A program made the translations under genes and the position numbers. Source: Perognathus longimembris pacificus (taxonomy: Eukaryota; Chordata; Mammalia; Rodentia; Heteromyidae). Taken from it: DNA of 64,000 nucleotides. The stretch covers positions 50,517,649-50,581,648 of the forward strand of contig NC_063166.1 of NCBI RefSeq assembly GCF_023159225.1. Direction: 5' to 3'. This document shows, in pieces, positions 7,353 through 29,439 of this stretch (positions are counted from its first letter, which is position 1; every line of letters begins with the position of its first letter). The notes under the pieces are model-generated. The model saw nothing but the letters and a program-made list of their open reading frames with translations. It was not told where the DNA came from and searched no databases.

Positions 7353-7524
7353 TTAAAGAAAGTGAAAAAAAGACTAGGAAAATGAAAAGCTAGTTTCAGG
7401 ATCCCTTATCTTCCCCCAACTTTTACATTGTTCCTTCTACACCAGTACTATCTAGCCCAGTTAAAGACATTAGTCTTTCAAGCAGCCTCATCATTACAAG
7501 ACTCATGCACTGTACAAGTCACCC

Positions 7525-7925: not shown

Positions 7926-7944
7926 TTGTTTTTCATTTTATTTA

Positions 7945-8915: not shown

Positions 8916-9095
8916 TTTCAAGATGGTCGATGATGTTATGATTCAAATATCCTAGAGCATTCATTTCAGCTGATTGTTTCCTTGTAAATTCTGAGAACCA
9001 CTCAATCCCAGAAAGAAATAATGGAAGTATTTGCAACTGATGGTGCTTGGGGGGAAACTTTGTGGAAGAAGATTTTTCTGCATGGAAAGCCTATA

Positions 9096-9096
<1 letters not shown>

Positions 9097-9137
<41 letters not shown>

Positions 9138-9328
9138 ACCTTGGGGCTTGAATTCAGGACCTATGCACTCTCTCTTAGCATTTTTGCTCAGAATTTACAA
9201 GGCTAGCACTCTACCTCTTGAATCTTTCAGACTTTACTTTCCTACCCAGGCTGGCTTTGAATCAAGATCATCAGATCTCAGCCTCCTGAGTAGCTAGGAT
9301 TATAGGCAGGAGCCACCAGCACCCAGTC
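9097..9328 (-). mobile_element. 7SL/B1-Geo SINE with (TG)n at its tail end
   Basis: A (TG)n run at 9097-9135 lies at the 3' tail side of a reverse-oriented SINE. The element then reads 'GGGGCTTGAATTCAGGACC' and 'GAGTAGCTAGGATTATAGG'. This is an example of microsatellite growth from a SINE tail. Confidence 0.75.
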
Positions 9329-9688
9329 CTGTTTTCTGCTTTTCAAATGGAATTTCCCTGGCAGAGAATGAAAGCAAATCTCTTAATATATTCTATTTTG
9401 GGCTCTCACAGTCAGATTTCACTGGAACCACCACATACTGATTTTCTAAATTCCTGTGTGCATATCAGAATACTGCCTAGAAGGTATCAATGATACAAAA
9501 AAATGGGGGCGGTGTCTTTTCACAAGGCCTTGTTACACAAAGATATCCAAAGATATCCATTCCTACAAGTATGCCAAATGCTAAGTTCTTCCTTCAAAGC
9601 ACCTGGTCTAATTTTAAGCATGGAGCAGTTTACCACAGACTCAATGTACATATGTGCTTAAACCATAAACAATGACTTACAATCCATG

Positions 9689-9772
9689 AAAGGGGCTACA
9701 GACATAGTTCAGTGCAAGAGCACTGGCCTAGCCTCTGCAAGGCCTCTGGGATCTACTCACAATACCAAAGAA
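9689..9772 (+). mobile_element. ID-like SINE monomer
   Basis: 'GGGGCTACAGACATAGTTCAG' (cut here to its core) starts a diverged tRNA-Ala-like monomer, followed by A-rich sequence. Confidence 0.55.
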
Positions 9773-9824
9773 AGGAAAAAATAAATAAATTGCAGTAGTA
9801 ATTTTCCAAGGCCAACACCTCATA

Positions 9825-9957
9825 CAATGGTTGAGAGAGATGGGGGAGAGTGATGGAAGGGGTAACACTGATCAAGATGCATTTTACTCATACATTGATC
9901 TATTAACTTGAAACCTTTTGTACAACTACTGAAGAATAATTTAGAAAACAAATTTTC
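9825..9957 (+). mobile_element. L1 3'-end fragment
   Basis: It is a G/A-rich stretch then 'CAAGATGCATTTTACTCATA' and 'CTTTTGTACAACTACTGAAG', matching in order the tails of L1 pieces near 36060 and 55000. Confidence 0.5.
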
Positions 9958-9964
9958 ATCTTAA

Positions 9965-10045
9965 TTTTTGTACTGGGGATCAAACCAAGAATGTTGCACT
10001 TGCTAGGCAAGCACTTTGCCACTGAGCTACATCCCAGCCCAATAA
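9965..10045 (-). mobile_element. ID-like SINE monomer
   Basis: The reverse complement is tRNA-Ala-like. The + strand shows 'TACTGGGGATCAAACC' and 'GCCACTGAGCTACATCCC'. Confidence 0.65.
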
Positions 10046-10743
10046 GAATAAATCACTAAAAAAAAAAAATCAATAACACCTGCAAGCCTGCATTTTCTGC
10101 AGTCATTGAAGATTTCTGGGAGCTCAAGCCAAGGCCTGGGGGAATGGACCCAGAAAGGCACCATTTGTGGTCAGCACCTCAGGTTAAGAGGTTGACTTGT
10201 TAGCTCCTTTTTACACCTGTTGAATGGGTCATCCAAGCTAGCCCATATCCACTCTCCTCTGCTTCCCACCCCTCTTTCAACAGCATCATTTTTCCACCCT
10301 TAACAGCCACCTAAGGACAGTTATCCTGTGCAGGCAAACCTGGGGTAACTTGTAATAGTAAAGTCAAATGCTTATGTTTTTCCCTGCAGTAGGGTAACAT
10401 TTCTCATCTCTTATTTTCCTTGGCCAGAAGGAAGATGTCATTCAGGGAACCCCAGGTGTTTTGAAGATGAAAAGGAATGTAGGGGGCCTGGCTCAGTGCT
10501 TATTAACCACAGAGAGAATCGGGTTCACTTCAAGAAAGAGTGAAATAATGGCAAGGAGAGACAATGGCTCTTAATGAATTCATATGAGGAAAGTGTGTGG
10601 TGACCAGTTTGGAGACAAGCAGTCCTTAGACTGTCTTCTGAAGGAGAAAAACAAAACAATTGTTTTCTATTATGATATGAATGATATTTACTTGTCTTTG
10701 CTGAAGCACACAGGACTGGCTGGATTTCATAACCAATTGCAAG

Positions 10744-10747
<4 letters not shown>
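10046..10747. other. Unique intergenic DNA
   Basis: No gene, SINE or LTR recognised between the last upstream SINE and the (TC)n tract. Confidence 0.4.

Positions 10748-10748
<1 letters not shown>

Positions 10749-10816
<68 letters not shown>
10749..10816. repeat. (TC)n microsatellite, about 34 units
   Basis: A perfect dinucleotide homopyrimidine tract not obviously attached to a SINE. Mirror symmetry makes it a potential triplex-forming sequence. Open frames through it are artefacts of the repeat. Confidence 0.95.
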
Positions 10817-10819
<3 letters not shown>

Positions 10820-11084
10820 ACTCCTCCTCATCCCCCCCGCCTTTGCCTTTAATTTAAATGAGGCAGAAGACCTCAGATCAGGCCTGAGGTATAAGAGTAA
10901 TCTTAGGTGCACTCCTTCCGCCAGGCTCCACTTCACTCCCTCACATCTCTCCCTGAGAGGTCACGAATCCCCATCCTCCAGTGACACACCTCGCAGAGGA
11001 CAGCAAGTGCTCCTCTTTCCTGTGTCAGACCTAAGTTGAATGGAACACCTGGGGAATAAATCAGCCTTTCAAGACCCTGGGGGA

Positions 11085-11280
11085 CCGCGGGGGAGGGGGG
11101 GAGTTGAAGACAAGGAGCGTTGTGGGGGGCAGGGCAGGGGAACACCGAGGCTGCTTCTAATCCTAGACAGGTGGCACCTTGGCACAAACGCCCTGAAATC
11201 ACTTTCTTCCTGGGCTGCAGGGAGCTGAATCCTTTCCCAGAAGAGCGACATCCCTCAATCAGGACGGGGGGGGGGGGGGT
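11085..11280. repeat. G-run-rich segment
   Basis: Several G-runs occur at 11085-11135, and an uninterrupted run of 14 G lies at 11266-11279. G-quadruplex formation is possible but is inference only. Confidence 0.6.
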
Positions 11281-11329
11281 ACACTGGGGAGGGGCCTACA
11301 ACCCAAGGCCCGAGGTCCGAGACCCCCCG

Positions 11330-11480
11330 TGAAGCCGTACGATCTGCCTTGGATCCGCATATCTAGTGTAAACGCGGTTTCACACATAAATAACGTGCCA
11401 CATCTGGCCCTTTGGTTTTATGGCGTCTTAGCGACCGAGCAATTTATAGATGGCGACCTTGTTAACCAGAAGCCCGGGTG
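11330..11480. promoter_or_regulatory. Candidate conserved non-coding block
   Basis: Unique sequence lies just upstream of the CpG-rich segment, with AT-rich cores ('CACATAAATAACGTGCC', 'GAGCAATTTATAGATGGC') and no repeat. It resembles vertebrate conserved non-coding DNA in texture. No alignment was possible. Confidence 0.3.
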
Positions 11481-11734
11481 CGCCAGGAGCTGCAGGGTCT
11501 CCGGCACTGATGAAGACAGGACAGGACAGAGGAGGGGCGAGGGTGACCAAGGACTTGGGGTTCCCAGATCAGCAGCTGGGGCGGGGGTGGGCACAGCGTG
11601 AGTCTGCCCGTGCACTGGGAAAGATGGGGCCTCGGCAGGACGGAAGCCCCCCTCCCGCGCCAGCCGGGTATGTGGCAGCTGAAAGAGCCATCGAAGCCCC
11701 AAGTGTGTTTGCGCTCATACCCAATTTATTACCG

Positions 11735-11785
11735 CTGAACATATGGCCAATATTTTGACTCACGTCAGTCCGGCAAGGAAAACAA
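11735..11785 (+). promoter_or_regulatory. Candidate upstream promoter with CCAAT and AP-1/CRE-like motifs
   Basis: 'GGCCAATATT' (CCAAT box) is followed within 15 bp by 'TGACTCACGTCAG', which combines an AP-1 core (TGACTCA) and a CRE-like half site (ACGTCA). A very CpG-rich segment starts about 15 bp downstream. This would suit a CpG-island promoter for an alternative first exon of Nkx2-2. Direction is inferred from the donor at 12068. Confidence 0.4.
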
Positions 11786-12067
11786 ACAGAGCGCGCGCGG
11801 CGCGGGGGAGCGGGCCCCCTCCGCTGGGGCTGCGCGCCGGCCGCGGGGCCCCGGAGCCCGGAGGGTGGGGCCGCCGGGCGTGAAGCTGGGAGCCGGAGCG
11901 GGGAACTGGGAGCTGACAGCCGAGAGGGGGAGCGATCGCCTGCAGCGCGGCGCCACAGCCAGAGTGCGCGCTGACCGCCGCCCAGCTGACCGCGGCAGGG
12001 ACTGCGGGGCTGCGGGAGACCGGCTCGCTCGCCGAGGCGGGGCTCCCACAGCGCAGCCGCTCTCCAG
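11786..12067 (+). other. Candidate alternative non-coding first exon (1) with consensus donor
   Basis: A CpG-dense segment ends in 'TCTCCAG|GTGAGC', a near-perfect splice donor with GT at 12068-12069. Paired with the acceptor ending at 20887 it would define an 8.8-kb first intron of Nkx2-2. Alternative 5' exons are reported for mouse Nkx2-2. The exon start is not defined by sequence. It could instead belong to a non-coding RNA. Confidence 0.35.
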
Positions 12068-12748
12068 GTGAGCCTTTCGCTTGCTGGCTTCCGGTAGCCG
12101 TCCCGGGGCGCTGAGAGCAGCCGGGGAGCGGTGTGGAGGTGATGCGGGAACCAGGCTTCGCCTCCCTCTGCCGGGCATCAGGCATCAGTTCCTTGTGCCT
12201 CAGCCTCCGCACGGGTCCCCGCAGCCTCCGAGGGCGCGAACACATTCTGGGCACAGTCCTCGCGGCGGGCCAGCGGAAAGGGACATCTCGGGGCATCACC
12301 GTGTTCGGTGAGCTGTGTCCCAGTTCCAGATCCCTTGCCCAGCCTGCCAGCCGGTCCCTCCTCGAGGCTTCGCACTCGCCGGCGTTCCCTGGCGCAGAGT
12401 GGGGAAGCAGCAGGTGGGCAGATCTGGGTGTCTCCAGTCCTCCCGGGACTTTGGGGGGGGGGTGGAATCTCGTGGAGAGACATCCCCCACTACCCTACCG
12501 CTCCTGCCGTCTGGGAAACTTTTGCCTGTCCCAGAGGCCAGGTGATCCTGCCAGGCTGCACCGTAGGGAAAGGGGACTGACTGGGCAGGTGCAGAGTATG
12601 CACGGTCAGCAGAGGAAGGAGGGGCGCAGCGTCCCCTTTACCCCCGCTCGCCCGCCGGCATCTCGGCGGACCCTCAAGCCCCGCCTGGGAGGGCCTGCGA
12701 CGAGAGGGAGGGGAGGGCGCAGCAGGAAGGGGCGTCGGGTAGGTGGAG

Positions 12749-12926
12749 GGCTAGATAAAGACGCGCCCGGGAATGCGGCGCTGCTGTAGCCACTGCGCCG
12801 GGAGTGGGAGGCGGAGCGGGCGCGCAGAGCGCCGGGCCAGCCTCCTCCCCACTGCCCAGTGCTGGACGTTCCTCAGCTTAGGGCAGCTCCAAGGAAGGAC
12901 CCGCCACTGTCCCCTTCCTCCTCTGG
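12749..12926 (+). other. Candidate alternative first exon (2) with TATA-like box and donor
   Basis: 'CTAGATAAAGACG' near 12749-12762 is a weak TATA-like element inside the CpG island. About 170 bp downstream 'CTCTGG|GTAAGT' (GT at 12927-12928) is a strong donor. The pair would fit a first exon of about 145 bp starting near 12780. Transcript data are needed. Confidence 0.3.
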
Positions 12927-13599
12927 GTAAGTCTCCCCTTGGGCGCCACGGCGGGGGGGTGGGTCGGGGAGGGGAGCGAGGGAGGACTTGGGCTTGGAGG
13001 TTGCAGTAGTCTTGAGCAAAAAGTCCCGAGGTAATTTGGAGATGGCGCCTCGTAGAAAAAGGGGCAGGAGTGGGGCGGGGAGCTGTGGGGACGGAAGGAT
13101 GAGTGGCGGAAGTCGCTGGCGAGGACCAGCCAGGGCGGAGAGCTGGAGGAGTAAACCGCGATCGCCGGGAGGCGACCCTAGCCGGGAGTTTAGAAGATTC
13201 AAGTCGTCAGGGCCGGGCCCGGCTCTGGACAGTTCTCATTTGTGACAGTAGAGATCGCCAGAGGATCAGAAATGAACCTCGATGGGGCCTGCTGAATTCA
13301 GGGTCACTGAGGGGCGCCCCCTTGGTTGCATCCACCCCTCCTCCACCACCCACCCGCAAGCTCTCCAGGAAGGCCCTCCCGTGCGTGTCTCGCGCCCCCT
13401 CCTCTTTGCTGGCACCTGGGGTTGGGACAGGTGTTGAAACACCCTGGGGAAAACCTTGGGTGTCCAGATTGGAGAGATAAGAAACAATCTGCAGGCACCC
13501 CTTCTCGGTCCCGGAGGGAGCTCGTGGGTGCGCCCCTGGCCCTCCCTAGCCCTTAACCCCGGCTGAGCTCGCGCGGCGGCGGAGGGCTACATTGCACAC

Positions 13600-14290
13600 A
13601 GCCTGCCGAACCCAGCTTCAAGTATGGAATGTTAACCCGTTATGAGAGGCGGCCTGTTTGCCAAAGTCTTGTGATAATGATTTCATCACGTGTTAAGAAG
13701 TAAATTCAGATAAGGAAAGGCTTTCTGTGCCCGTTTCCTAGAGAAACCAAAATCTCCCCCCACTGAAATCGCCTTTATCGGGAGAAGGTCGGGCTGGGCT
13801 GGAACAAACGTTCCTGAAGGCATTGCTGACGATGCGTAATCTCATTGTAACATATTTAATCACTAGAGCAGCGCGAACGAATAAAGCAAAGGGGTTCGCC
13901 CGGGGGGGAACGCGATGTTTGGTTCCCCCAATAAGCCAGTGATAATGAATTGTCTGGAACAAGCTTCTTTGGCTCGAGGGGGGCTTAAACCTACGTTTAT
14001 AAAAGAAAATATTGGAAGGAGACCCGTTGTATTTTGCAGTCCGCCCGGAGCTACATTTCGTGTTCAATTTAACATCCATGAAAGTTAAACGGCTTTGCTC
14101 GCCTCTTATTTTATTGGATGCATTTTCAAAGATCTCATTAAATTGCATTTATCAAAGTCCTAACATATACCCTCGGGGTCTTACGCCCACACAAAGAGGC
14201 TGATTAATGGACAGAGAAATCCTAATTTCTGTTACAATTCACGTCCTCCGAGTTATGTGGCCCTTTGTGGGGTAGCGGCAGGTAACTGGA
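13600..14290. promoter_or_regulatory. Candidate enhancer block 7 kb upstream of Nkx2-2
   Basis: Unique AT-rich sequence in an otherwise GC-rich region is packed with homeodomain-type cores ('GATAATGAATTG', 'TCATTAAATTGC', 'TGATTAATGG'). It also has a CACGTG E-box at 13687-13692 and a SOX-like ACAAAG near 14193. There is no repeat. Texture and position suit a developmental enhancer. Conservation is untested. Confidence 0.4.
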
Positions 14291-15354
14291 AAGCTTTGTA
14301 TATTTTGCCTTGAAAGAGAATGGTGACACTTCTATGTCTTCCACCTGCAACGATTATGACCAGGTCAGGGACTCCAGGCTTTAGGTCAGCAACTCCCTCT
14401 TCATGCTTTCTGGGAGTTACCGCCATTCTGAAGGAAGGGGGACATGGGACAGAGCTTGGATGCTGGGCTTGCAAAACGTACTCATTCACCACCTTCTTGG
14501 TGAGTTGTCCATCTGGGAGGCGTCCATTCATTCTCCCCATCCTGGTACTTAAGAGTCAATGCCTCAACATGGACTAAAGAATGAAGAAAAGTCATCATGA
14601 GCGTAAACCCAAAGTGGGCTCTTTTCCATCCATTCACAGTGTGCTCTCTGTTCCATCTGGGCTATGGCTAGTGGATAAAGGGAATTCCCTCTGCCAGAGA
14701 TCTTTGTGGGCCTGATCTGGCCTACCCAAAGTTGCACATCCTCACTCCAGACACTTCACTAAACAGGTTTCCAGTAACTTCAGATTTCCTCTCCCAGGTG
14801 CCAAAGGGGAGACTAGCTGAAGCTAGGATTGATAGGAGACCAAACTGATGTTGTTTCCTGGGTGTGGGGGTGGTTGGTATTTTAGGGGCAGAATTTCTCC
14901 CTGTCTTCCACTCAGGATGCCAGAGTTACCCCCTGTCCTCAAGAAACCCAAACCTAAGCAACCCTAGGGTTGTTTGAGGGTTGACATCATTAGAAGTGAT
15001 CATCTTTACTGCAGCCGCTAGGGACCAGAATGGGTGACATTTTCCTTCCCTAGTGATTTTGAGTGTGTGCCATGCTTGGAGTCTTCAGCCCAAGACAAAA
15101 GAAACCTCTCCCCTCTGACAAAATCTTCATGTGGTGTTGTTAATCCTCACTGGAGCTGGAAGGTGTGATGGGCTTTGTTTCAGGAGTGAACCAAGACAAA
15201 TGCTTGCACCTTGCCACTAGCCAGATAATAAACTAATCCACTTCAAGGTTGTTATCTGAGATGAGCTGGGGAGGGGACAGGTGCAACCACATTATACCAA
15301 GAAAGGAGTTTCTTTTCATTCCAAAGGAAAAGAATAATAAAGAAATGACATCAA
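14291..15354. other. Unique DNA, nothing recognised
   Basis: No repeat, gene or strong promoter signal is seen. The short frames at 14253-14577 lack recognisable features. Confidence 0.4.
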
Positions 15355-15545
15355 GGGCTAGGAATGTGGCTTAGTGGTAGGTGCTTTCCTAGCATGCATG
15401 AAGCCCTGGGTTTGAATCTTCAGTACAACATAAACAGAAAAAGCCAGAAGTGGCACTGTGGCTCAAGTGGTAGAGCACTAGCTTTGAGCAAAATAAAGCT
15501 CTGGGATAGTGCCCAGGTCCTGAGTTCAAGCCCTAAGGCTAGCAA
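15355..15545 (+). mobile_element. IDL-Geo dimeric SINE
   Basis: 'GGGCTAGGAATGTGGCTTAG' starts an older IDL monomer and 'GGCACTGTGGCTCAAGTGG' marks the Geo half. A purine-rich (A/G) tail follows to about 15607. Confidence 0.8.
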
Positions 15546-15684
15546 AAAAGAAAAGAAAAAAAAAAGAAAGGAAGGAAGGGAGAGAGAGAAAGAGGAAAGA
15601 AAGAAATGAAGTCAGACACGTTAGTGTTTCCAAATAAAGGGGTGAGATCTTGGTTTATTTATATTTTATGATAAGAACTGATGC

Positions 15685-15888
15685 CAGCACCAGTGGCTCA
15701 TGCCTGTAATTCTAGTTAACTTAGGAGGCTGGGGTCTGAAGATTGAAGTTCAAAGCCAGCCCAGGCAAGAAAGTCCATGAGTTATCTTATCTCCAATTAA
15801 CCACCAAAAGGCCAGAAATAGAGCTGTGACTCAAGTGGTAGAGCACTAGCCTTGAAAAAAAAAGGCTCAGGCCTTGACTTTGAGCCCC

Positions 15889-15951
<63 letters not shown>
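15685..15951 (+). mobile_element. 7SL/B1-Geo SINE with (AG)30 tail
   Basis: The SINE ('CAGTGGCTCATGCCTG', 'AGCTGTGACTCAAGTGG') runs directly into a perfect (AG)n microsatellite at 15892-15951, so the repeat grew from the SINE tail. Confidence 0.8.
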
Positions 15952-15955
<4 letters not shown>

Positions 15956-16145
15956 ATTTGCAAGTAGAGAAGATAAAGCATGTCACCTAGGCCTGCTAAG
16001 CTTTAAACTTCTAGAGGCCATTTCCCTTTCAAGTCAATTTGCAAGATCACCCTTCCCCTAGACTTTGCCATAAGCCCCCTGGGCTGTGCACCCTATAACA
16101 GGGCTAAAGCAGCAATTGAGGGGAGAAGTCAGATACCATCCAAGA

Positions 16146-16225
16146 AAGCTGGGGATTTGGCTGAGTGGCAATGTGCTTGATTAACATGCACAAGGTCCTA
16201 GGTTCAACCTCCAGCTCTGGGGGTA
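16146..16225 (+). mobile_element. ID-like SINE monomer; last repeat before the repeat-free zone
   Basis: 'GCTGGGGATTTGGCTGAGTGG' core (partly shown) with B-box-like 'AGGTTCAACCTCC'. No SINE, L1 or LTR is recognised downstream of this until 30215. Confidence 0.6.
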
Positions 16226-18839
16226 AAATGCCACCCAAGTATGCCCACTTTATCCAGAGGCCCACTGAGGAAGGCTCCTATCTATACATCAAGACCTCTC
16301 CCCACTTGCCTAAAGTATCTTTCTTGCCTTATTTGCTCAGATTTAGAACTCCTCTCTCCATATATACAGTGAGAGGAGGTAAACTGAGGCATGAGGTAGA
16401 CGCCAGGAAAGCAGAACACATTGGGGCACTTCAGAGCACAGAAAAGACACCATGTTTGAGCTACCTGGGAAAGTAAACAGGTAAACATTGGGCTGACTTA
16501 AAGGGCCACTTGTCCTGGAGTGGGGCCACTTAGCCTGTGTACATTCACCTCCCCTCTGAGGCCTCCGGCAATTGTTCAACTCCCTCCCAGCCCTCTCCAG
16601 TTGTCTGAGCCCAAGCTTCTGTCCAAAAGGCCAAAGCAGCCAACTCAGAAGAGTCCTTGGCCTCCTGAGAGAAAGGTATGCTTCTTCCCTTAGCCAGCCT
16701 GTGACTCCCATGCTACCTTCCTAAATTAAGAGGGGAAAACACATAGTTAGATATGGGTATAAACTTGGAGCCCCGATGCTGAGGATGACGACCAAGCACT
16801 GAGAATGGCTTCAACTCTTCAGATAACCCCAGCAGGATCGTGTGTTGCTCTGAACACTAATGAGATACCAGAGCAATCTTCCCCCAGCTAAAGCGTGGAT
16901 TCAGAACTGAGCTGGGTTCAAATTTTCCAGCATTCACCCCCAACTTCCTCCCCTAGAAGGAGAAGACAGTGCAGAAGCTCTGCCCTCACCTCACCACAGC
17001 AGCCCAGAGTTAAACCAGATGGAGCCTGGGACAATGCCCACCCTCCCTCAAGAATTCCGAGTGGACATGACCCAGCGCACATCTATGTAGAGCTGAAAGT
17101 GGTGCCGACCGAGGCTGATTTGTACTCCATTGACAGGGTGGGGGTGGGGGCACATTAATACAGGACTCTAGATGGGGAAGCAGTGAGTGACTGGGTCTGC
17201 TCAGCCTGCTGAGTGTACTGATTTCCACAAAAGAGGAGATTCTGGGACCCAACAGGCAGGACTATAGCACTCACAGGGAAGCGTCTTCCAGAGTCCATAG
17301 CACCAGCCACCAGTTTAATTTGGGCAGAAGTGGTGCATTTAGAACCTGATGCCTCTGGCCTTCCATCCCCAAGCCTGGCTCACAAAATCAAGGAAACCCA
17401 CCCAGTAGTGGGGTGTAGGCACAGGACTGGCCCCTGGCCACCAGCTGGGCCTGTCTGGGCCTCCTGGCATCCCCAGGCTGCTCCTGGGGGAGTTGTATTT
17501 ATGATCTTCCACTAACAAGCCCAATTTCTCCCCAGCAATTATGAGCCTCCCAGCAGTCTCCCTTCACCTTTTCAATTGCAAATGTTAACGCGTTGGAAGC
17601 AAGCAGGGAAACCACGAAGGGATGGGGGAAGTGAACTCATGAAGTCTCGGGAAAGACCTAGCTCAGTAGGTCTGGCTGCACTTGTGGGTAGGCCAGGAGC
17701 CCCTCCCAGCCCGGCTGACCCAAGGCCGAAGCAAGGAAAAACCTGGGTTCTGAGGAAGGCAGAGGCCAGTAGTCACAAGGGAAGTCCCACACAGGGCCTG
17801 GGGGAAGAAGATCCTGCATGCAAGATGAGGAAGGGTTCAGTTTGGTTGAAGCCCAAGGGGCAGCTGTAGGGCAAACCCAGCCTTTGTGAATGGGACAGGA
17901 GACCAGGCACTTAAATCAACACTCCTTTCCTACAATTAATTCCCAGGAGCCTAGATTCCAGTAGAGAATCAGTTGCCTCTCTCTGTGCTCTGCACACCTT
18001 GCAAGCTACTTTGCTGCTTTGCAAGGCTGGTTAGACTGAAGAAGGAAGAAGAAAGGTCCACCAGGCTTGGAGAAGGGAGAAGTTGGGAACTGTAGAGAAC
18101 TAGGTGGGTTTAAACCATGGAAAGGAGCAAGTTCTGGAAGGTTCTCCCCGCCCCCCAAACACATACTCAAAGATGGCTCTGGACATATTCAAAACAGGAC
18201 ACTTCTTGCTAAAAGACCACTTTCCACTCAGTCCAAGAAGTTGGCCTAACCACCATGCTCCCTTTGGGCCCTAGGCCCCATCCCTGAAGCCTGTCCTTAG
18301 TCCCCCAAGAAAATACACAAACCCTCCCCTCCCTTAGGACAGAGGAATAAGAGGAGGAACAAAAGGAGGAGGTCTTTTCTGCAATGCTTGGGTTGAGGAA
18401 CTTTTTCTCACCAGCTATTTATTTAGCATCTGAGTAACAATGGCTGGGGCAGGCCCACCCTGGCTTCTGTGTCCAAACTCAGCGCTTCCCTTACCACTAG
18501 AAAAGCAACTTGCCACCGTAGTCCGGGCAGGGCAGCAGGCTCCCATGTAAGGGGGGCGGGGGGGGGGCAGGCAGGGGAAGAAAAATAAATAAATAAAACT
18601 AAAAGACACAGAAAGTAATGGGTTGAGGAATATGGTTCCAAACCAGTGTCTATTTCTTGCAAGGGGTTTGAAACGGGAGAAAGGAGAGAAAGGGGGAAAA
18701 AGTAGGAGGAGAAAGAGAGGAATCGAGGAGCGTCGACATGAAGGGGTTTCCTTAATATTGTGGACGGATTCAGAAATGAATGAAGAGATAGTCCATTGAA
18801 AAGGGTTGAATGCCATGACAACTAGGAACAACCTTAGAT
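16226..18839. other. Unique, repeat-free upstream DNA
   Basis: No interspersed repeats and no recognisable gene. The largest frames (up to 138 codons on the minus strand at 18415-18831) are low in information and match nothing I know. A G-run lies at about 18550-18568. Confidence 0.45.
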
Positions 18840-19110
18840 TTATTCCAAACAGTTAGGACACATTGAAAGCGAGCGTCAATCATGTATTATTTCGCCACTG
18901 AAATAAATGCAAAAACCGAGCCGGGACAAAGGCTTCCAACGGGAGCGGGACATTTGTCTACATTTCGCTCATTGTCCGCAGCTTAGCAATCGGTTTGTAT
19001 TTGTGTTTGCCCGGGTCCGACCACCCAGGACGCGCCGACGAGGGGCTCGCTCCAACCTGGGCCATTGTCACCCACGTCACATACTGGGGCGAGGCAGCGA
19101 GGGCTGCAGA
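18840..19110 (+). promoter_or_regulatory. Candidate Shh-responsive enhancer with perfect GLI site
   Basis: GACCACCCA at 19019-19027 is an exact match to the GLI consensus. Eight bp before it, TGTTTGC (19004-19010) fits a FOXA motif. SOX-type CATTGT cores flank it at 18970-18975 and 19063-19068. 'GTCAATCATG' near 18873 is PBX-like and GACAAAGG (18925-18932) is TCF/SOX-like. Mouse Nkx2-2 is known to be a direct GLI target with GLI and TCF sites in an upstream enhancer roughly 2 kb from the promoter. Here the site is about 1.9 kb upstream of the TATA-like box. The GLI match is seen directly; equivalence to the mouse enhancer is inference. Confidence 0.7.
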
Positions 19111-20720
19111 AAGCCGCCGAGCGGCTCGGAGAGAGTCGCCCTCACCAGGCCTTGGCAACCCGGGGGTGGCAGGGGCGCCTTGGTGGCCGAGGCAGCTGCG
19201 CGCAAGAGAGGACCTGGCGTCCGCACGGTCTCCGCTGGCCGGGTGCTAAGCGGCCGGGGCTTGGGGCTGTCCAGGAAAAGAGCCCAGACTCCCACAGGCG
19301 ACCTTTTCTGGCCCTCCTTTGCCCCAAGCTCCTTCCGGATGCTTCTTGGGGCGAACAAGCCTCAGGTAGCAACCCCCCACCCCACGCACACATAGTTAAA
19401 CTGGACAGTGGAGCTGTCAGGGCGGCGTTGCTTTTTCCTCCCCAGCGCAGAGGAAGGCTGTTCTAGGAAAGTTCTGTTCCAGGTCCGGGAAAAAGCAGGT
19501 TGGAAAGTTCACACCAACCTAAAGCAAACTGGAAGCTCCAATCGCTTCCTTGTCCTCGGAGCGCACCCTCCGGGTGTCCAAAAAGAGAGAAAAAAAAATG
19601 AAAGGACTGGCAGAAAACCCCTCACCACTCGACTGCCCTATGGCCCCACGCCCCTGTAGCTTTCTACGTCTTCACTCGGGTTGAAAGCGCGACCCACACC
19701 CCAGCCCCGCGGGGCAATCCCGCCCCCCCCTCCCGCGTCCCCGCCGCTCCACCTTAAGCAGCAGGCTGGAGAGGGAGGAGACCGGGACAGACACGGACAC
19801 TACTGGGGCCCCCCAAAAAGGGAACTGGCCAGCCCACTCGGCCATCCACTGGGAGAAAGCAGCCTACGGAGGCCTTAGGCAGCTAGGCTGGGCCAAGGTT
19901 CCATCCAACTTGGCCTAAATTAGAGCATCCCAATCCCGGCTCCCTCCTTTGCCTGGACCGCCCGCCAAGCAGAAAGTGCACTGCGAGTCCAGGGTGGCTG
20001 CAAAGAAATCGGGGGCGGGGAAAGGGGGCTGTGAGGGAAATCAATGAGTCTTTAGCAAATAAAGGGTGGCTGGAGGGGGGTGGGTCGCTTGCTGGTGGTT
20101 CAGGCCCTCCCGGAGCCGAGTCCTCTCCAGGATTTCGAGTTCTTTCGCGGTTAACTAGAATCAATTACTTGCCTTGTCATTTCTAGTACTCATCCTTAAG
20201 CCTCAACCAAAATATTGACCTAGGAGGCTTACAGAAGTTGGGCTCTTGCCATTTGAACCGGATCGTGTTTAGGGAACCCACTAGCGATGGGAAGGAAAGA
20301 TTTCTGAGTCTGAGCCTCGGTTCCCTCCCCCCCCCTCCCTACTCCACAAATCGCCAATTTTCCGCCTAGCTCCTGGGCAGGCTGACCGGGGTGGGTAGGT
20401 AGGAATCGGTAAATGTTAAAGAGCTTGTTTTTCCCTCTCACACACACCCCCGCCTCCGATTCCTGTTTGTTTTCTACCAACCCCCTCCCTCCACCTCTTT
20501 TTAAGATGCAATTTGTTAAAACGGCCCTTTCGAGTGTGTGGTCTCGAGAACTACGCGGTGGCTCTTTGTATGTAAATACTGGGTTAAAAAAAAAAAGGCT
20601 CTCCCCGTCTTTGCAATTAATTGACACGTTACACCTCTCATCTTGCTCTAGAGGGCCGTTGGCTGGAAGCGCAGAGCTCCCCCAAAACCCACAATTTCAC
20701 ATCTGCAAATACCGTCTTCA
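19111..20720. other. GC-rich proximal upstream DNA
   Basis: CpG-rich at 19000-19270 and 19660-19760, free of repeats. Frames on both strands (up to 162 codons) are GC-driven and mutually overlapping. No gene is supported. Confidence 0.45.
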
Positions 20721-20721
20721 T

Positions 20722-20729
20722 CCACTTGA
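20722..20729 (-). promoter_or_regulatory. NK2 homeodomain consensus near the promoter
   Basis: CCACTTGA reads TCAAGTGG on the minus strand, the high-affinity NK2/NKX2-2 core. It lies about 180 bp upstream of the TATA/CArG-like box, and a second CAAGTG core lies at 21286-21291, 41 bp before the start codon. Autoregulation or regulation by another NK2 protein is possible. An 8-bp motif is common by chance. Confidence 0.4.
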
Positions 20730-20782
20730 CTCCCAAGACCCGCCCACACGTGGCCAACCTTTGCGTTTTTAATGTCTCTTCC

Positions 20783-20887
20783 CCCCCCCCTTTTTTTCCA
20801 CCCCTCTCTCGCTCCCTCTCTCGCGCCCCCTCCCTCCTCTCTCTTTCCCTCTCTCCCTCCCTCTTTCTCCCCCTCCCCCCTCCCCAG
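20783..20887 (+). promoter_or_regulatory. Long polypyrimidine tract and 3' splice acceptor
   Basis: Roughly 100 bp of almost pure C/T ends in 'CCCCTCCCCAG|GTTCG', with AG at 20886-20887. This is an unusually strong acceptor for a + strand exon that would contain the Nkx2-2 start codon. It implies transcripts starting further upstream. The same tract could also act as a non-B DNA or SP1-type promoter element. Confidence 0.55.
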
Positions 20888-20906
20888 GTTCGTGAGTGGA
20901 GCCCAG

Positions 20907-20916
20907 CCTTATATGG
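20907..20916 (+). promoter_or_regulatory. TATA-like / perfect CArG box of the proximal promoter
   Basis: CCTTATATGG is an exact CC(A/T)6GG CArG box (SRF-type) and includes a TATA-like core. A start about 25-30 bp downstream (about 20935-20945) would give a 5' UTR near 390 bp with no ATG before the real start. Whether it works as TATA, SRF site or neither needs data. Confidence 0.5.
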
Positions 20917-20932
20917 ACTGATCGCTCGGGCA

Positions 20933-21034
20933 ATGGCCCATTTTTTCCTCGCCACCAGCCGCCACCGTGCGCCGAGCGGCCGCCGGAGCCCGAGCCGACC
21001 GCGCCTTGGCGCCTCTCCTGGAGTTACAAACTAA
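20933..21034 (+). other. Upstream ORF present only in longer 5' UTRs
   Basis: An ATG at 20933 opens a 33-codon frame ending in TAA at 21032-21034. It is the only ATG between the acceptor at 20887 and the coding start at 21332. A transcript starting at or after about 20935 lacks it. One spliced at 20887 contains it, so promoter choice could alter translation. Confidence 0.4.
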
Positions 21035-21331
21035 GGTCGGGCTGGCGCTCGGCGCGCCGGCCGCCAACTCCCTGCGTCCATTCCCTCTGGCTTTCAGAGA
21101 AGACAGAGGCTCCGGGTTGGGTTTTCATTTCCCCCCCTTTCCCTTTCTTCCCGTCACTGATTTTTGTAAATTCATCTCTCTCTTTTTTAAAAATAATAAT
21201 TACCCCCCAATAATTGAGGCCCATCCCCCGCCCCTCCCCCAACCCTCCCCCGCCCGCCGGGGCTGGGGAGTGCCACGAATTGACCCAAGTGAAGCTGCAA
21301 CTTTACGGCATCAATTGCCGGGTGCCGAACC

Positions 21332-21590
21332 ATGTCGCTGACCAACACAAAGACGGGATTTTCCGTCAAGGACATCTTGGACCTGCCGGATACCAATGAT
21401 GAGGAGGGCTCGGTGACCGAGGGGCCGGAGGAGGAGACCGAGGGACCGGAACCCGCCAAGAGGGTCGGGCCTCTGGGGCCGGGCGCCCTGGACGCCGTGC
21501 AGAGCCTGCCCCTGAAGAGCCCATTCTACGACAGCAGCGACAACCCCTACACGCGCTGGCTGGCCAGCACCGAGGGCCTCCAGTATTCCC
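21332..21590 (+). CDS. Nkx2-2: Homeobox protein NKX2-2, coding exon 1 (residues 1-86)
   Basis: This exon encodes the N-terminal 86 residues of NKX2-2, an NK2-class transcription factor that specifies ventral (p3/V3) neural progenitors and is required for pancreatic beta-cell and other islet cell fates. The start ATG has A at -3, and the proximal 5' UTR has no earlier ATG. The TN (tinman) motif, which recruits Groucho/TLE corepressors, is at about residues 9-19 ('[11 protein letters not shown]'). An acidic E-rich linker and the conserved '[14 protein letters not shown]' block follow. The exon ends 'TATTCCC|GTAAGT', splitting codon 87 after its first base. Compared with human NKX2-2 as I remember it, about five substitutions fall in the linker and none in the TN motif. 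Confidence 0.95.
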
Positions 21591-22537
21591 GTAAGTAGCG
21601 AAACGGAGCCCCCGCCGACACTACCTCCACTCCCGCGGCTGCAGCCTGGGCTGGACAGAGGGAGCTGGGGGGGGGGAGGGTCCTTTAAGCTCCCCGAAGG
21701 CCCTCACTCCGCGTCCCAAGCAAGATTTTTTAGCACTTGGTCCGAATAGCTTCGCCCCTCCTTCCCCAAACCCTCCGTCCCGAGCCGAAGGCAAGCTCAG
21801 ATTTTTTTTTTTTTTCAACTTGAGAAGTTAAAGAGACCAGAGAAGGGAGATGTCTTCCACGGGCTGATTGCAGATGTCAGCCCAGCGGACAGCTTCATCC
21901 GGAGCCTCCGGGCTCTGCCCGCAGAAGGGACTGGCCTGGTGCACGTTGGAGCCAGCCAGTGAGTCTGGTCCGGCTCCGGGTAAAGGGTGGGGGGAGGCTT
22001 CGAGTGGCCCGGGTATAAGTAGCTCACCCAGCCCCCGCCTGCGCGATCATAAGAGGATGCTTTGTGCTGTGCTGGGGGTGTCCAGAAAGGCTGGAAGAAG
22101 AAAAAAACACCCGAAAGCCCCCCAAAAAAACCTGCCTTAAATGGCTGAGCCGATCAATGCTGGGATTGTGAAGGTTTTCTTTTTGAAAATCTGCCCACGT
22201 CTCTCCAGAGAGGAAATAGCTTAAGGAGGCCGGAGCCCTTAACCCTCAATGATCTCCCAACGCGCTCCATTCCCCACCAAATGTGCGCCCACACGGGAGC
22301 GACCCCCTACAACAGCGGGCCCCGAGCCCTTACTACTGTTGATTCTCCTTTTTATACCCTGGGCGACCCCGACGGCTTCCTCAGGCGTGCCGGGGATCGG
22401 AGCAAAGCCAGCCGTGTTGGCACCGGACTAGAGGCCCCAACCGAGGAAACCCGGGTGCTAGGGGTCTGCGCCCCCTTCCCCCAGGCCCTGGGCCTCCAAT
22501 CGCCTGATGCGCTTTTCTCCCCCCTCTCCCTCCCCAG
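21591..22537 (+). other. Nkx2-2: Nkx2-2 intron, 947 bp, phase 1, GT-AG
   Basis: The donor is 'CCC|GTAAGT' and the acceptor is 'TCCCTCCCCAG|TGC' after a pyrimidine tract. Joining the exons restores the Leu-87 codon (C|TG) and the reading frame. The intron has a T-run near 21801-21815, no interspersed repeat and no other supported gene. Confidence 0.93.
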
Positions 22538-23100
22538 TGCACGGGCTGGCGGCTGGCGCACCCCCTCAAGACTCCAGCTCCAAGTCCCCCGAGCCCTCGG
22601 CGGACGAGTCCCCGGACAATGACAAGGAGACCCCCGGCGGCGGGGGGGACGCGGGCAAGAAGCGGAAGCGGCGGGTGCTCTTCTCCAAGGCGCAGACCTA
22701 CGAGCTGGAGCGGCGCTTCCGGCAGCAGCGGTACCTGTCGGCGCCCGAGCGCGAGCACCTGGCCAGTCTCATCCGCCTCACCCCCACGCAGGTCAAGATC
22801 TGGTTCCAGAACCACCGCTACAAGATGAAGCGTGCCCGAGCTGAGAAAGGTATGGAGGTGACGCCCTTGCCCTCGCCGCGTCGGGTCGCTGTGCCCGTCT
22901 TGGTCAGGGACGGCAAACCGTGCCATGCGCTCAAAGCCCAGGACCTGGCAGCCGCCACTTTCCAGGCGGGCATCCCTTTTTCGGCCTACAGCGCGCAATC
23001 GCTGCAGCACATGCAATACAACGCTCAGTACAGCTCGGCCAGCACCCCCCAGTACCCGACAGCACACCCCCTGGTCCAGGCCCAGCAGTGGACTTGGTGA
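22538..23100 (+). CDS. Nkx2-2: Homeobox protein NKX2-2, coding exon 2 (residues 87-273)
   Basis: This exon encodes the rest of NKX2-2 and ends in TGA at 23098-23100; total length is 273 residues, the usual length. A Ser/Pro/Asp-rich linker precedes the homeodomain at residues 128-187. Diagnostic residues are present: basic N-terminal arm 'KKRKRR', Phe8 (F135), Trp48 (W175), Phe49, Asn51 (N178), and the NK2-type Tyr54 (Y181) that selects CAAGTG sites. The NK2-specific domain lies at about residues 201-217 with '[15 protein letters not shown]'. The C-terminus is Gln/Ser/Tyr-rich and ends 'QQWTW', as in the family. I see no truncation or frameshift. The gene acts in the nucleus, as a repressor with TLE in neural tube and as activator or repressor in islets. 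Confidence 0.97.
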
Positions 23101-23683
23101 GCGCCGCCCCTCCGAGACTCGCGGCCACCCCCAGGCCCAGGTTCCACTCCAGCGGCGGCGGCGGCGGCGAGGAGAACGGGGTCCTTAACCATGGGTTATT
23201 AATATTATTATAATTATTATTAGGGTCGAGTTGACTCTCGGCTTCAGTTGGGGAGGCGCTGAGAGGCGCCCACCACCCCCTTTGGAGTGGCAGATTCCAG
23301 CCGTCCGCCTCTGCCCCCACCCCTCTCCTGCTTTGAACCTTTGGAGAGGGTTGAACTCTAAGCCGTGTTTACAGAATGTTTGCGCAGCTTCGCCTCTTTG
23401 CCTCTCCCTGGGGGAAACCAAACCACCCCAGCGTTCACTCCGTCACCGGAAAAGAGAAAAGACCCACCGCCCCACCCCACGCCGCCCCGCTGTCGTGAAT
23501 TTTGTAAAAATATGTTGATGTGAGTAGCGATATTCTTGTCAGTCGTCTCTAAAGCAAGTGGGGGACACTTGAAAGATATAGAGGACTTCTTCTTCCTCTC
23601 GTCTTCTTTTTGAAATAAGCAAATGCTCAATATTTATGGCCATGTATACGTTCTGACAACTGGTGGCAGATTTCGCTTTTCGT

Positions 23684-23691
23684 TGTAAATA
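23684..23691 (+). promoter_or_regulatory. Pumilio response element candidate in 3' UTR
   Basis: TGTAAATA is an exact UGUANAUA match on the sense strand, about 345 bp before the poly(A) signal. PUM1/PUM2 binding would lower mRNA stability or translation. Function is inferred from motif alone. Confidence 0.4.
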
Positions 23692-24033
23692 TCGGTGGTG
23701 GTGTTGCCAAAATGACATTCAGAATGGGCCTGTCCCCTCTCCAGGCCCGACTCCTTTCTTTGTGGTTTGGTTTGGTTTGGTTATGTTTGGGTTACCCCCC
23801 CCCCCATTTCCGTCTTCTCTTCTTTTTGTTTTGTTTTATTTTATTTTGTTCTGTGCGAACAGTTTTCGAATATGGAAAAGAAAAAAAAAAGGAAGTAGGC
23901 GAGAAGCCCTCAGCCCCATTTTCTGGGGTCCCGAGCCCCAGAATTTAGAACTCAGCTGTTCCGCACGGTCCTCCCCTCCCCGCTCCAGAGCGCCGGGCGC
24001 TGAAAGCTTTCCATTTTTTTAAATAAGAATTTT

Positions 24034-24039
24034 AATAAA
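24034..24039 (+). terminator. Poly(A) signal AATAAA of Nkx2-2
   Basis: Canonical AATAAA in 'TTTAATAAAAATCC', followed within 20 bp by a T/G-containing stretch. It is the first clear AATAAA after the stop codon and gives a 3' UTR of expected size. Confidence 0.75.
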
Positions 24040-24060
24040 AATCCTGTGTTAAAAAAACAC

Positions 24061-25379
24061 ACACGAGCGCAGCCCTCCCGTTTGTCAACTTTGTCGCCCT
24101 GCTGGGGACCGAAAACCTCTGGCCAAGGAGCCACCAGAGGTGCGTCTCTCGGGTTGGGAGGCCGGGGTACTGGGACGCTGGAGGGGCTCCCCGCCAGGCC
24201 GCCTCGGGACTGACCACCGCGGCACCCCGCGCTAGGACCCGGGGCCCGAGCACCAGAGCTTGGCCAGCGGTTGGTCGGAGTCCAGGATGGCCCTTGATCT
24301 TCGGGCCTCTCCTCGGGCTTGGCGCGCTGTCTGAATCCCCCCAGCAGCAGCGTCCTAGTCTAAAAAGGAAAAGTGACTTTGGGAAACGCGAAGGCGAGGA
24401 GAGCAAGCCCCCCTCGTCCGCCCAAACCTACGAGTGGCTCCTTCAGCCTGAGAAGCTGTTGAAGCCACTACACTTGATGACTTTCACTTTGTTGCGTTTT
24501 ATTTTCCTCGCGCTGAAGGGGGGAGGGGGACCCGAGGTTGACACTGCTCGGCTTTCTCTCCACTCCCCACCCCCTTTTCAAAATCTTCGGTGGCTGGAGG
24601 CCTAGGAGCCCACTCCGAGGCCTGGGTGCGGATGGGAGGGGTGAGGGGGCCGGGGAGGTGGGTTTTGAGACTGGCAATTGGGGAGTTGTGGTGGGCCCTG
24701 GGCGCAGATGACAGCGGGACAGCGGGGTTGCAGTGCACCTCTCCAAGCTTTTTATCCCGGGGCACACGGGAGCGAGTCATTGACAACCCAAGCCAACCAG
24801 CCTCTCCTCTCAGCGATCTTTCCTGGGTTTCCAGCTCTCTGGCCAGGAACTGGATCCTTAGCCTGGTTCTCTCGCAGCGTTTGGTGGAGCGAGCCCCCCC
24901 CCACCCCCCCGGCCCCAGGCCAGCCCTTGGGCGTGCGGTTGTAGGAGGAATTGTTAGAAAGCCAAGGTTGGAGGTGGAGTGGTGCGCCCAGACCTCCAGG
25001 GATGACACAGGGGAGCCGGAAGTGGGTAAACAGCCCCGGGCTCCTCCCGAGGAGTTTGCAGCCCTCCTCAGCATGGAGTTGATTGCATCCCAGCCTGTGC
25101 CCACCGCACAGATCTACTAGGCGAATGCTGGCACTCACTTGGCTGCCTGGAGGAACATGGGGGCAGACTGGGAGGATGCACCTTTCTCCTGTATCTCGAG
25201 GATTTAGGGAAATACCCGTGGTTCCGTGGCTCTGAGCCCAGCGGGAGCTCTGAAACACCTGGAAATGGAAAATCAGCCCGTTTGGAAATCGTAACTCTTG
25301 ATTTTCTGCAGAGCTCCAGCTTCAAGGCTAGGGGAGTGGAGGGAGGCGAGGAGGCCGGGCAAAGGGAGCGGTCCCTGAT
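24061..25379. other. GC-rich downstream flank
   Basis: Repeat-free sequence with CpG-rich parts near 24065-24330. Long overlapping frames on both strands (up to 201 codons) reflect base composition. No gene is supported. A partial GLI-like GACCACCGC occurs at 24212-24220. Confidence 0.4.
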
Positions 25380-25760
25380 GACTTTCTGGTTCCCTCCAGT
25401 TGATGATCAGATTTAATTCAATATCTAAAGCAAACATGATTATCCGTGTGACCAAATCTGCGCGTCAATAGCACTCAGTGCAACGCGCCGAGGGACATGA
25501 TTACACTTTATTCCCGCGTTGCGCACTGGTCCCTGGATAATTGAGGGCAGGGAATATTCTTAATATCCGCCTTCAGGTCTTTCCCCATCCCCAGGTTCAG
25601 CAGCCGGTAGGGAGCAGTTTTCCTAAATGCTAAAAGGGCTCCCTTTGTTGTCTGCACTAGCTCGGAAACCTTTGGGGGTTTGTCTGGGTATTCATAAAAA
25701 GCCAGATATAGAGTTTTTCCCCAAAATTATTTGTGGCTAATAGTCGGACACCCAACCTGC
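25380..25760. promoter_or_regulatory. Candidate enhancer block 1.3 kb downstream of the gene
   Basis: Unique AT-rich sequence with repeated homeodomain cores ('AGATTTAATTCAATATC', 'CATGATTATCC', 'CATGATTACAC', 'GGATAATTGAGGG') stands out from the surrounding GC-rich DNA. The texture suggests a conserved regulatory element. Not tested by alignment. Confidence 0.38.
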
Positions 25761-26029
25761 TCTGGATATCAACCACTCAGTCCCACGTGTAACTGTCTGT
25801 AGCCCCGCCATGGGGGGGAGGGGGGGAGAAAGTGGGGTTTGTCAAGAGATTGAGGTACTGTCTCAACTCCAGAAAACCAGAGTTGGTTTTGACTACCCGA
25901 GTCCCCAGCTCTTCCTAGGCCCAGGATAGCCACAAGGGTTCTCTAGGCCTCGGTGGAGGAAGGAAGGGGAACAGAACGCTCCGGCTCCTCCAGGTTTCCA
26001 GTGTGCTTGAGCAGAAAGCGCATTTGGGT

Positions 26030-26270
26030 ACACGACCAGGCCCACCGGCCGGCAGCCCGGGTCTGCGCGCTCCCGCGCGGCTGGGACCCGGGAGATGGGC
26101 CTGGAGCCCGCCTCTCTCTCGGTGTCCTCCGGGAGTCTATAAAAAGCGCCTGCGGAGCCCTGTGTGGCCCTAACCCCAGCGCCCTGGGAGCGCACCCGGC
26201 GCAGGGTCCGCTTCGGCAGTCTATCTTCGCCCAATCTACAGCAGGCCGCACAAAACGGCACAATGGGAAC
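26030..26270 (+). promoter_or_regulatory. Candidate TATA promoter in a CpG-rich segment, + strand
   Basis: TATAAAAAG at 26138-26146 is a canonical TATA box inside a CpG-rich stretch ('GCGCGCTCCCGCGCGG' upstream). A start would fall near 26168. No protein-coding gene is recognisable downstream, so any transcript would probably be a non-coding or enhancer RNA. It could also be a chance TATA in GC-rich DNA. Confidence 0.35.
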
Positions 26271-27479
26271 GCTGGGAGTTGGAGATGTTAGAGGCGTGCA
26301 TATTAAAAAGGGACAGAGAAAAGATCGCAGGGGACAGAAAGACGGGAAGAGGGAGAAGGGGCCCGCCCTCCCCCCACCCCACCCGGCACCATTCAGCGCG
26401 CTTATCGCGGGCAGTGAATCCCGGAGTCAGGCAGAAGTCTCCTTGGGGTTTTGTTGGGCCTGTCACTGGGTCCCTTTGTCATCCGCGGACTCCATGCTGG
26501 ATTCCATATGGCCAGCTGGGCCGAGGGAGCGCGAGGAGGGACACGCACAAAACCCAAATTGTGTCCGGCTTTCAAACCCTGTATTGTTGTCTGTGAAAGG
26601 AAGACGCATTAAAAATTCGTGCTATATCTATTGGGGAGGAGGATGGAGGAGGGGAAAAAAGCCACCCCTGTCTTTGATGGCTTCAGAGGGCGCCTACCCT
26701 GCCTAGGCCCCATGACTCTGAGATCTCTTTCTCTCTCTCTTTCTCTCTTTCTCTTTCCCTCTCCCTCTCCCTCTCCCTCTCTCCCCAAATAAACTGGTAC
26801 ACATGCTTGGCCAGGTCTGACATGTGTGCTTTTAGGGTTAGGACTCCGGCCACACTTTTTAGTGCTGCATGGTAGAGCTGGCGGCCAGGCTTGTGTTTGG
26901 ACGCCCAGGCTGAAGGCATTGGACCATCTGGGATGCCCAGGGACCGGTTGGTGCTGTGTCTGCCAGAGTTTGCCACTCCAGAATAGAAGAGAATCCAGCC
27001 CCCTGGCTCCAGCCTCAGAGGATAGAGCCACCCTTCCATTCCTGGCCAGAATACCTCTGCGGGCCCAGCACCATCTTTAGCCATGGCCTCTCCCAGGAGG
27101 GTTGAGGCAGGTGGGACCCACTGCATTGCTGCCCCAAGCAGCTGGGGAGCCACACTTCGTTTTGGATTTCATTGAGGTGGTCTGTCAGCATCTCAGTGCA
27201 AGGGGAAATCATTGGGAAACTTCCTCCAGCAGCCTCTCCACGGTGGAGGAAGAGATCTCCTCCTCATTCTTAATGTTGCCTACCTCCTTTTGTTCGCAAA
27301 ATGAAGTCACGGAAGCACTGCCTGGCTTACAAGGAATTTGCCCCCTTTACCTTCTCTAAGTGTTTGCGTTGGCATAAGGCATGCCGTCTCCCCTACAATA
27401 GCCAGGTCAAAACCCCCCAGAAGCAGGCCCCCAAATAAACAGTATGTGGTTTAAAAAAAAAAAGTGTTCAAGCTGAGCT
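26271..27479. other. Unique repeat-free DNA with a short pyrimidine tract
   Basis: A CT-rich simple tract at about 26723-26784 gives the only low-complexity signal. Frames on either strand through it encode R/E or S/L repeats and are artefacts. No gene recognised. Confidence 0.4.
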
Positions 27480-27870
27480 GTGAAAGCCAAAATAGAACCC
27501 AGACATCTTCCCCTGAAGTCGGTCCTTAATGAGCTGAGTCGGTGGAAATTCCAATTAACCCAATCGGGTACCCTCCCTCCTTGTTTAATGTTGGCGTCAT
27601 AATTAGAAGAATAGGATAACTCCACGGGAGGGGAGAACACCCCTCCTCAGTCACACCCCACCGCAGGCCAAAAACTAACTTATTTTTCTTACCTATTGAT
27701 TGTTGGGCTTAGTTGAGACCTGGTGTGGATTTCTCAAGCCTTTTCAAGAGCCTGGCCATTGAAAAGCTAATCCAGTATTTACCAAGCATAAGGACAGTTC
27801 TCAGACGTATTTATTAAGGCCCACGGCTAAGTGATTACTTGGATGCAAGACAAAGGCCGAGGGCCAGGGT
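27480..27870. promoter_or_regulatory. Candidate conserved non-coding block
   Basis: Unique sequence with several homeodomain-type cores ('CTTAATGAGC', 'CCAATTAACCCAATCGG', 'GTCATAATTAGAAG') and no repeat, 3.4 kb beyond the poly(A) site. Possible enhancer. Confidence 0.35.
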
Positions 27871-28059
27871 GTCCCATCATGACAGCCTCTGCCCGTGGGA
27901 CCTTCCCCACCCACAGCTTGGACATCAGGCGCGAACTCGTGGCTCCTGAGGCTGAAGTGGCCCGTGGATTAGATGCTGCGTGGGGTAGTATTTCAGGAAA
28001 TATGTACTTGTGGCTTCCTGAGAGGCCGGGCGCAGTGACACTCTAAACAGTGTCGATAT

Positions 28060-28165
28060 ATCATCTTTTATCCAGGATCTGCAAATAAACCCTGATCCCC
28101 TCGGCGCATTATAGCCGCCGCTATCTCGCCGAGGAAGCGATCTGAGTTTTATTGCTTTCGCCAAC
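28060..28165. promoter_or_regulatory. Candidate conserved non-coding block beside a (CA)n tract
   Basis: 'ATCTTTTATCCAGGATCTGC' through 'GCCGCCGCTATCTCGCC' is unique and compositionally mixed. It is immediately followed by the (CA)21 microsatellite. Confidence 0.3.
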
Positions 28166-28170
28166 GCCCC

Positions 28171-28171
<1 letters not shown>

Positions 28172-28213
<42 letters not shown>
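28172..28213. repeat. (CA)21 microsatellite
   Basis: A perfect dinucleotide tract inside the repeat-free zone. Unlike most microsatellites in this window it is not attached to a SINE. Confidence 0.95.
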
Positions 28214-28217
<4 letters not shown>

Positions 28218-29439
28218 CCTTTCCCACCAGTCTGGTTTTTTTTAAGCTCTATTTTTCCTTCCCAGACATCGTTATGATTAAAGAAGCGAACAGGCCCCCC
28301 TCAGCGCCGCCCTCAGAGCAGCGAGGGGGCCGTGGGCCTTGCGCGTGGGGAATCGTGGAACCACAGTCCCTCAGACACCACAGGCTGCGGGGAAAACTAC
28401 CGGGCCCTGCGCGCTGCCGCCGCCAGGAGGCGCCCGCGCTCCATCCTAGGCGCGACGCGGGGTCCTGGGCTTCGCCCGGGAAGAGCATGGCTTGTGTGTG
28501 CGTGTGTGTGCGCGCGTGTGGGGGGGGGGGGGGAGGAGGTACTATCCCGGAAGTCCCTCGCTGCTTGTGCGCCACAGGGCAGCCCCAGGTCAGAACCCAG
28601 CATGGGGGCAGAGGAGGGAGTCGCTCACAAGTACCGTGCGAGCACTTACTGCGCCTTCAGCACAGCCGGTGAGGGTCCACAGCGGCCCCCCTGCACCGAA
28701 TACCCTCCTTTCCCTCGGTGCACCCCATCACCACCTCTCCACTGGCGTGACACACCTGCTGCCCCTGCCCCAACTTCCCTGAGCGCAGAGGCCTCAGCAA
28801 ACTGGTGGTTCAAGAATGCGCTGGCCAATGAGAAGCACCGGAGCGCGGGCTCCCCGGCCCGAGGACTGGGAGGTCAGGGGCCCTGAGAGTGATGCTGCTG
28901 CAGAGGGCTGCTAGCTTTGGTCCAGGATTTGGGGGTGGGAGGTGAGGAGGGAGGAGATGGAGACTGGGAAGCAGAGACCTTCCCCTCTGCCCACCATCTA
29001 GTTGGAGATCCACATCAACATCAACTACTGACGCCACAGCTGACAACCTAGAAAGGCCCTTGGAGAAGCCAGTCGCTCTCGCGCCTTTCCCGGGTCACGG
29101 CGAAATAGGTGCAGTGCATCCATCTGGCCACCAGAGGGAGACATCGCCCCGACGCCGGCCCTTGGGGTCTAGGCTGAGAAATGGAAATCACTCCTCACCC
29201 CTCTGCCAGGCCCGCCGCCTCTATAGCTAAGAGCACTGCAGGTGACCTCGACTCTGTGCTGGGGTCTTGACTGAGGCCCAAAGAGGTCTGGGAGAGGAAA
29301 AGACACACGACTTTGCCTCCTACCTCCACCTCTTTCAGGGAGCCTTTCCTAGAGGCTGGGTGTGGAGAGGATGACATTCCTCCACATACCTCATCGGTCC
29401 CATAGGCCCCCGAGAAATATCAGGGCCTGAAACCCCAGC
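28214..29439. other. Repeat-free flank, GC-rich in part
   Basis: GC-rich with a TG/CG and G-run at about 28493-28532. Frames up to 184 codons overlap on both strands and carry no recognisable domain. No gene supported. Confidence 0.4.

Follow-up and report, generated by a model that had tools for sequence, protein, structure and literature searches.

The 274-bp segment at positions 18812-19085 of the window, by which we mean the whole 64,000-nucleotide stretch of Perognathus longimembris pacificus DNA under analysis, is very probably orthologous to the mouse Nkx2.2 p3 cis-regulatory module (p3-CRM), acting on NKX2-2 in ventral progenitors exposed to Sonic hedgehog (Shh). The identity of the element is shown by the sites of the mouse primers, by its place upstream of NKX2-2, and by the motifs that it carries; binding, activity, and expression pattern in P. 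longimembris pacificus would, by analogy with work in mouse and chick, follow those of the mouse element. The element is real but unremarkable and has already been described in mouse, and the control of NKX2-2 by Shh through GLI in the p3 domain was established before. The present sequence extends by one species the record of an amplicon whose two ends are nearly unchanged, a result reached through a motif reading of raw sequence that landed on the documented enhancer, almost at the boundaries of the published ChIP amplicon.

Identity of the element

The ChIP-PCR primers for the mouse Nkx2.2 p3-CRM are printed in PMC5036887. In a search of the whole window, both were found to converge over 274 bp and to bracket every motif of the cluster described below. 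The reverse primer matches 18812-18835 on the plus strand at 23 of 24 bases and the forward primer matches 19062-19085 on the minus strand at all 24; the next best match of either primer in the 64-kb window is 16/24. Identity to the mouse CRM therefore stands at 47/48 in a comparison that covers the 48 primer bases at both ends and none across the GLI site, with order, orientation, and place all in agreement and the one differing base located in the distal primer site. The matches at both mouse primer sites are direct sequence evidence that 18812-19085 is orthologous to the published module. The original prediction had proposed a counterpart of a documented mouse enhancer upstream of NKX2-2, and its core is borne out by the primer bases; it had also named failure to align with the mouse region as what would undo it, and alignment was found at the primer sites, the 48 bases that were compared.

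An identity of 47/48 at the primer sites suggests that the element is under constraint, though these few bases come from a module that its authors had selected; the GLI site GACCACCCA would be expected to be invariant between species. A 24-base piece of the CRM, used to look for contaminating vertebrate sequence, gave no exact match in prokaryote genome contigs and none in viral contigs, and no Rfam family matched positions 10000-36000 at gathering thresholds. A literature text search, which was not exhaustive, found no letters of the mouse CRM beyond the primers of PMC5036887.

The NKX2-2 gene and its surroundings

NKX2-2 lies downstream of the element and in the right orientation. Coding exon 1 occupies 21332-21590 on the plus strand, running from an ATG at 21332 to a splice donor GT from 21591 (GTAAGT), and coding exon 2, which holds the homeodomain, occupies 22538-23100 on the same strand, after a CAG whose acceptor AG is at 22536-22537. 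Once spliced, the two exons yield a frame of 273 residues plus a stop. The exon 2 open reading frame matches the Pfam homeodomain PF00046, and among the best 60 of 122 distinct sequences the closest solved relatives of this homeodomain are Drosophila Vnd/NK-2, followed by Nkx2.1. We take the gene to be NKX2-2 rather than a paralog from its N-terminal sequence and from its length. A putative NKX2-2 promoter is marked by a TATA-like TATATGG at 20910-20916 on the plus strand. The GLI site is about 1.9 kb upstream of this box and 2.3 kb upstream of the ATG at 21332, in keeping with the placement upstream of Nkx2-2 given in the original prediction.

The gene and the module share a 14-kb interval, 16205-30215, in which there is no match to three SINE references, these being three copies taken from the window itself. 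This interval is the longest of three gaps of more than 3 kb among the 94 matched intervals, the other two running from 9323 to 15354 and from 57368 to 60939. Gaps of this sort are common at developmental genes. Many short copies at 2399-15774 and 30193-64000, among the best 20 of 24 direct-repeat families, are 7SL/B1-like and ID-like SINEs, a repertoire suggestive of a rodent that does not belong to the mouse-rat group. Separately, a GC-rich, CpG-island-like stretch 8-9 kb before the NKX2-2 ATG, at 11800-13000, contains the donor-like plus-strand sequences GTGAGC and GTAAGT. The coding potential of this stretch was judged from ORFs of 110 aa or more, and it is possibly an upstream first exon or the promoter of a non-coding RNA.

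Motif content

A perfect GLI consensus, GACCACCCA, is located at 19019-19027 on the plus strand and has no other perfect copy on either strand of the window, the canonical GLI sequence being that given in PMC3828767. A FOX-like TGTTTGC at 19004-19010, also on the plus strand, lies 8 bp before it. Two candidate SOXB1 sites, each recognized by motif only, from an ACAATG core on the minus strand (CATTGT on the plus strand), flank the GLI site, one per side; one lies at 18970-18975, and the other, at 19063-19068, falls inside the 24/24 primer site. Farther upstream, at 18925-18932 on the plus strand, stands GACAAAGG, an HMG-box site of TCF/SOX type that is one base off WWCAAAG and is separated from the GLI site by 86 bases. 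It is the best TCF-like candidate in the amplicon, which across 18812-19085 contains neither WWCAAAG nor CTTTGAW, and it may correspond to the published Tcf site. The GLI site, the FOXA-type TGTTTGC 8 bp away, the two flanking CATTGT cores, and the TCF/SOX-like GACAAAGG upstream had all been called in the original prediction, and all are present at these positions, the GLI site as an exact consensus match.

The element also carries a CRE-like TGACGT at 19074-19079 on the minus strand, 46 bases from the GLI site and one of four copies in the window. Because the forward primer covers both at 24/24, this site and the second SOX core are identical in mouse. It is conceivable, and in our judgment unlikely, that the module takes direct cAMP/PKA-type input through this CRE-like motif in addition to GLI, SOX, and TCF; were that true, PKA would counteract or modulate Shh directly at the DNA, in addition to its effect on GLI processing. 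Two further motifs inside the module are uncommon in the window, a PBX-like TGATTGA at 18876 (11 sites) and a POU-like ATGCAAA at 18907 (6 sites), and these could add positional inputs.

Chance expectation and alternative readings

Taken alone, the GLI site is without statistical weight, because its counts sit at chance expectation. One perfect 9-mer was found against 0.84 expected in 64 kb, as estimated from 100 shuffles of the window, 57 of which hold at least one copy, and sites with at most one mismatch number 17 in the window against 16.6 expected. One might thus propose that 18812-19085 is the orthologous CRM and that its perfect 9-mer is incidental, with GLI working instead via a weaker site elsewhere in the element or close by, a proposal to which both the chance figure of 0.84 and the restriction of the mouse comparison to primer sites, outside the GLI site, lend some room. 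We consider it very unlikely all the same. The window's sole perfect site falls inside the 274-bp CRM, which makes up 0.4% of the window, and when the element is shuffled 5000 times a perfect site arises in 14 cases. Besides 19019, no site with one mismatch or fewer lies between 13353 and 20534, and in the larger interval of 13353-24781 the sole further one is GACCACACA at 20535. The mouse CRM is itself described with a Gli site (PMC9898512).

A chance cluster of motifs devoid of any regulatory role is extremely improbable, even though motifs this short recur often, the window holding 52 ACAATG and 149 TRTTTRY sites. At least one each of ACAATG, TGTTTRC, and ACAAAG is found in 0.83% of the 274-bp stretches of the window versus 0.24% in shuffles. 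The combination of at least two ACAATG with one TGTTTRC and one ACAAAG is found in 0.39% of real 274-bp stretches, a figure that includes the contribution of the 18812-19085 locus, versus 0.01% on average over 40 shuffles of the whole window. Among the 5000 shuffles of the element, one held the SOX, FOX, and HMG set and none held all four motifs. These cluster figures overstate the surprise, because the motif set was picked after the sequence had been seen, and the rarity of the SOX+FOX+HMG cluster is only suggestive. Chance as the sole explanation is instead rejected because of the primer match, with 47 of the 48 primer bases identical to the mouse CRM and with place and order right, although the GLI site by itself is at chance level.

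The orthologous p3 module was also weighed against an enhancer of the floor plate that FOXA2 would drive beside GLI, on the pattern of the FoxA2 floor-plate enhancer. This reading, which we regard as highly improbable, draws on the nearness of TGTTTGC to the GLI site (8 bp) and on the report in PMC7614300 that Foxa2-null cultures lose most of their p3 cells, which fall from 25% to 2%; the same paper describes FOXA2 as binding the same places as the NKX2.2 protein. The published module, however, is described as a p3 module in PMC9898512 and PMC5036887, and the GLI fragment of the FoxA2 floor-plate enhancer finds a best match in the window of 27/50, with the next at 26/50, which is not above background. 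NKX2.2-positive cells persist in the Foxa2-null cultures, and the authors of PMC7614300 state that FOXA2 is not directly required for NKX2.2 expression. With the FoxA2 fragment at background and NKX2.2 cells persisting when FOXA2 is absent, the floor-plate/FOXA reading is unsupported; the loss of p3 cells nevertheless means that FOXA2 is important to p3 identity. The original prediction had read GLI plus SOXB1 plus FOX as the grammar of a floor-plate/p3 enhancer, and of this the p3 part stands, the weak points being the floor plate and FOXA.

Published biology and a proposed mechanism

The mouse enhancer holds a Gli activating site together with Tcf repressing sites and, in both mouse and chick, confines expression to p3, according to PMC9898512, which cites Lei 2006. 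As PMC5036887 cites Lei 2006 among others for the p3-CRM, the enhancer of the former and the p3-CRM of the latter are taken as one element. ChIP-reChIP of E10.5 mouse embryos with these same primers placed HDAC1 and Tcf4 together on the p3-CRM, where repression is described as acting through Groucho/TLE (PMC5036887), and Nkx2.2 induction depends on an element to which Gli binds directly (PMC2920307). Between them, PMC5036887, PMC9898512, and PMC2920307 report p3-restricted, Shh-dependent activity with GLI and TCF binding for the mouse element. GLI1 is described as raising NKX2.2 in Ewing tumour cells (PMC2763206), and reviews and models name SOXB1/Sox2 as the neural-specific input at Shh target elements (PMC4712844, PMC4197706).

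The motifs in P. longimembris pacificus appear to fit the published mouse element, with GLI at 19019, SOX cores on both sides, and GACAAAGG as the best TCF-like candidate, although the lack of any WWCAAAG or CTTTGAW in the amplicon speaks against complete correspondence. SOXB1 sites stand beside the GLI site in the Nkx2.2 p3-CRM itself. In ventral neural progenitors under strong Shh, GACCACCCA would be occupied by GLI activators, and SOXB1 factors at the CATTGT sites on either side of it would confer neural competence, the two jointly activating NKX2-2 from a position about 2 kb upstream. HMG-box sites of the element would be bound by TCF (TCF7L2) together with Groucho/TLE and HDAC, a complex that would keep NKX2-2 off in the adjoining motor-neuron progenitors.

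Comparison with known systems

The Olig2 pMN-CRM is the enhancer of a neighbouring Shh target gene and was studied beside the Nkx2.2 enhancer in the work described in PMC5036887. The Olig2 primers printed in that paper reach 16/24 and 17/24 in the window, which is background, and, unlike the Nkx2.2 p3-CRM, the pMN-CRM is one on which HDAC1 and Tcf4 were not found together in the experiments of PMC5036887. The FoxA2 floor-plate enhancer, whose GLI 50-mer (Sasaki 1997) is printed in PMC3267043, is likewise a neural enhancer that responds to Shh and contains a GLI site; it differs in its GLI core, GAACACCCA as against GACCACCCA here, and in its domain, floor plate as against p3. With the mouse Nkx2.2 p3-CRM (Lei et al. 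2006, Dev Cell 11:325; Wang et al. 2011; Oosterveen et al. 2012, as cited in PMC5036887 and PMC9898512), the element shares its gene, its upstream place, its ChIP primer sites, and the presence of a GLI site and of candidate TCF/SOX-type sites, and it departs from it by the single base in the distal primer site.
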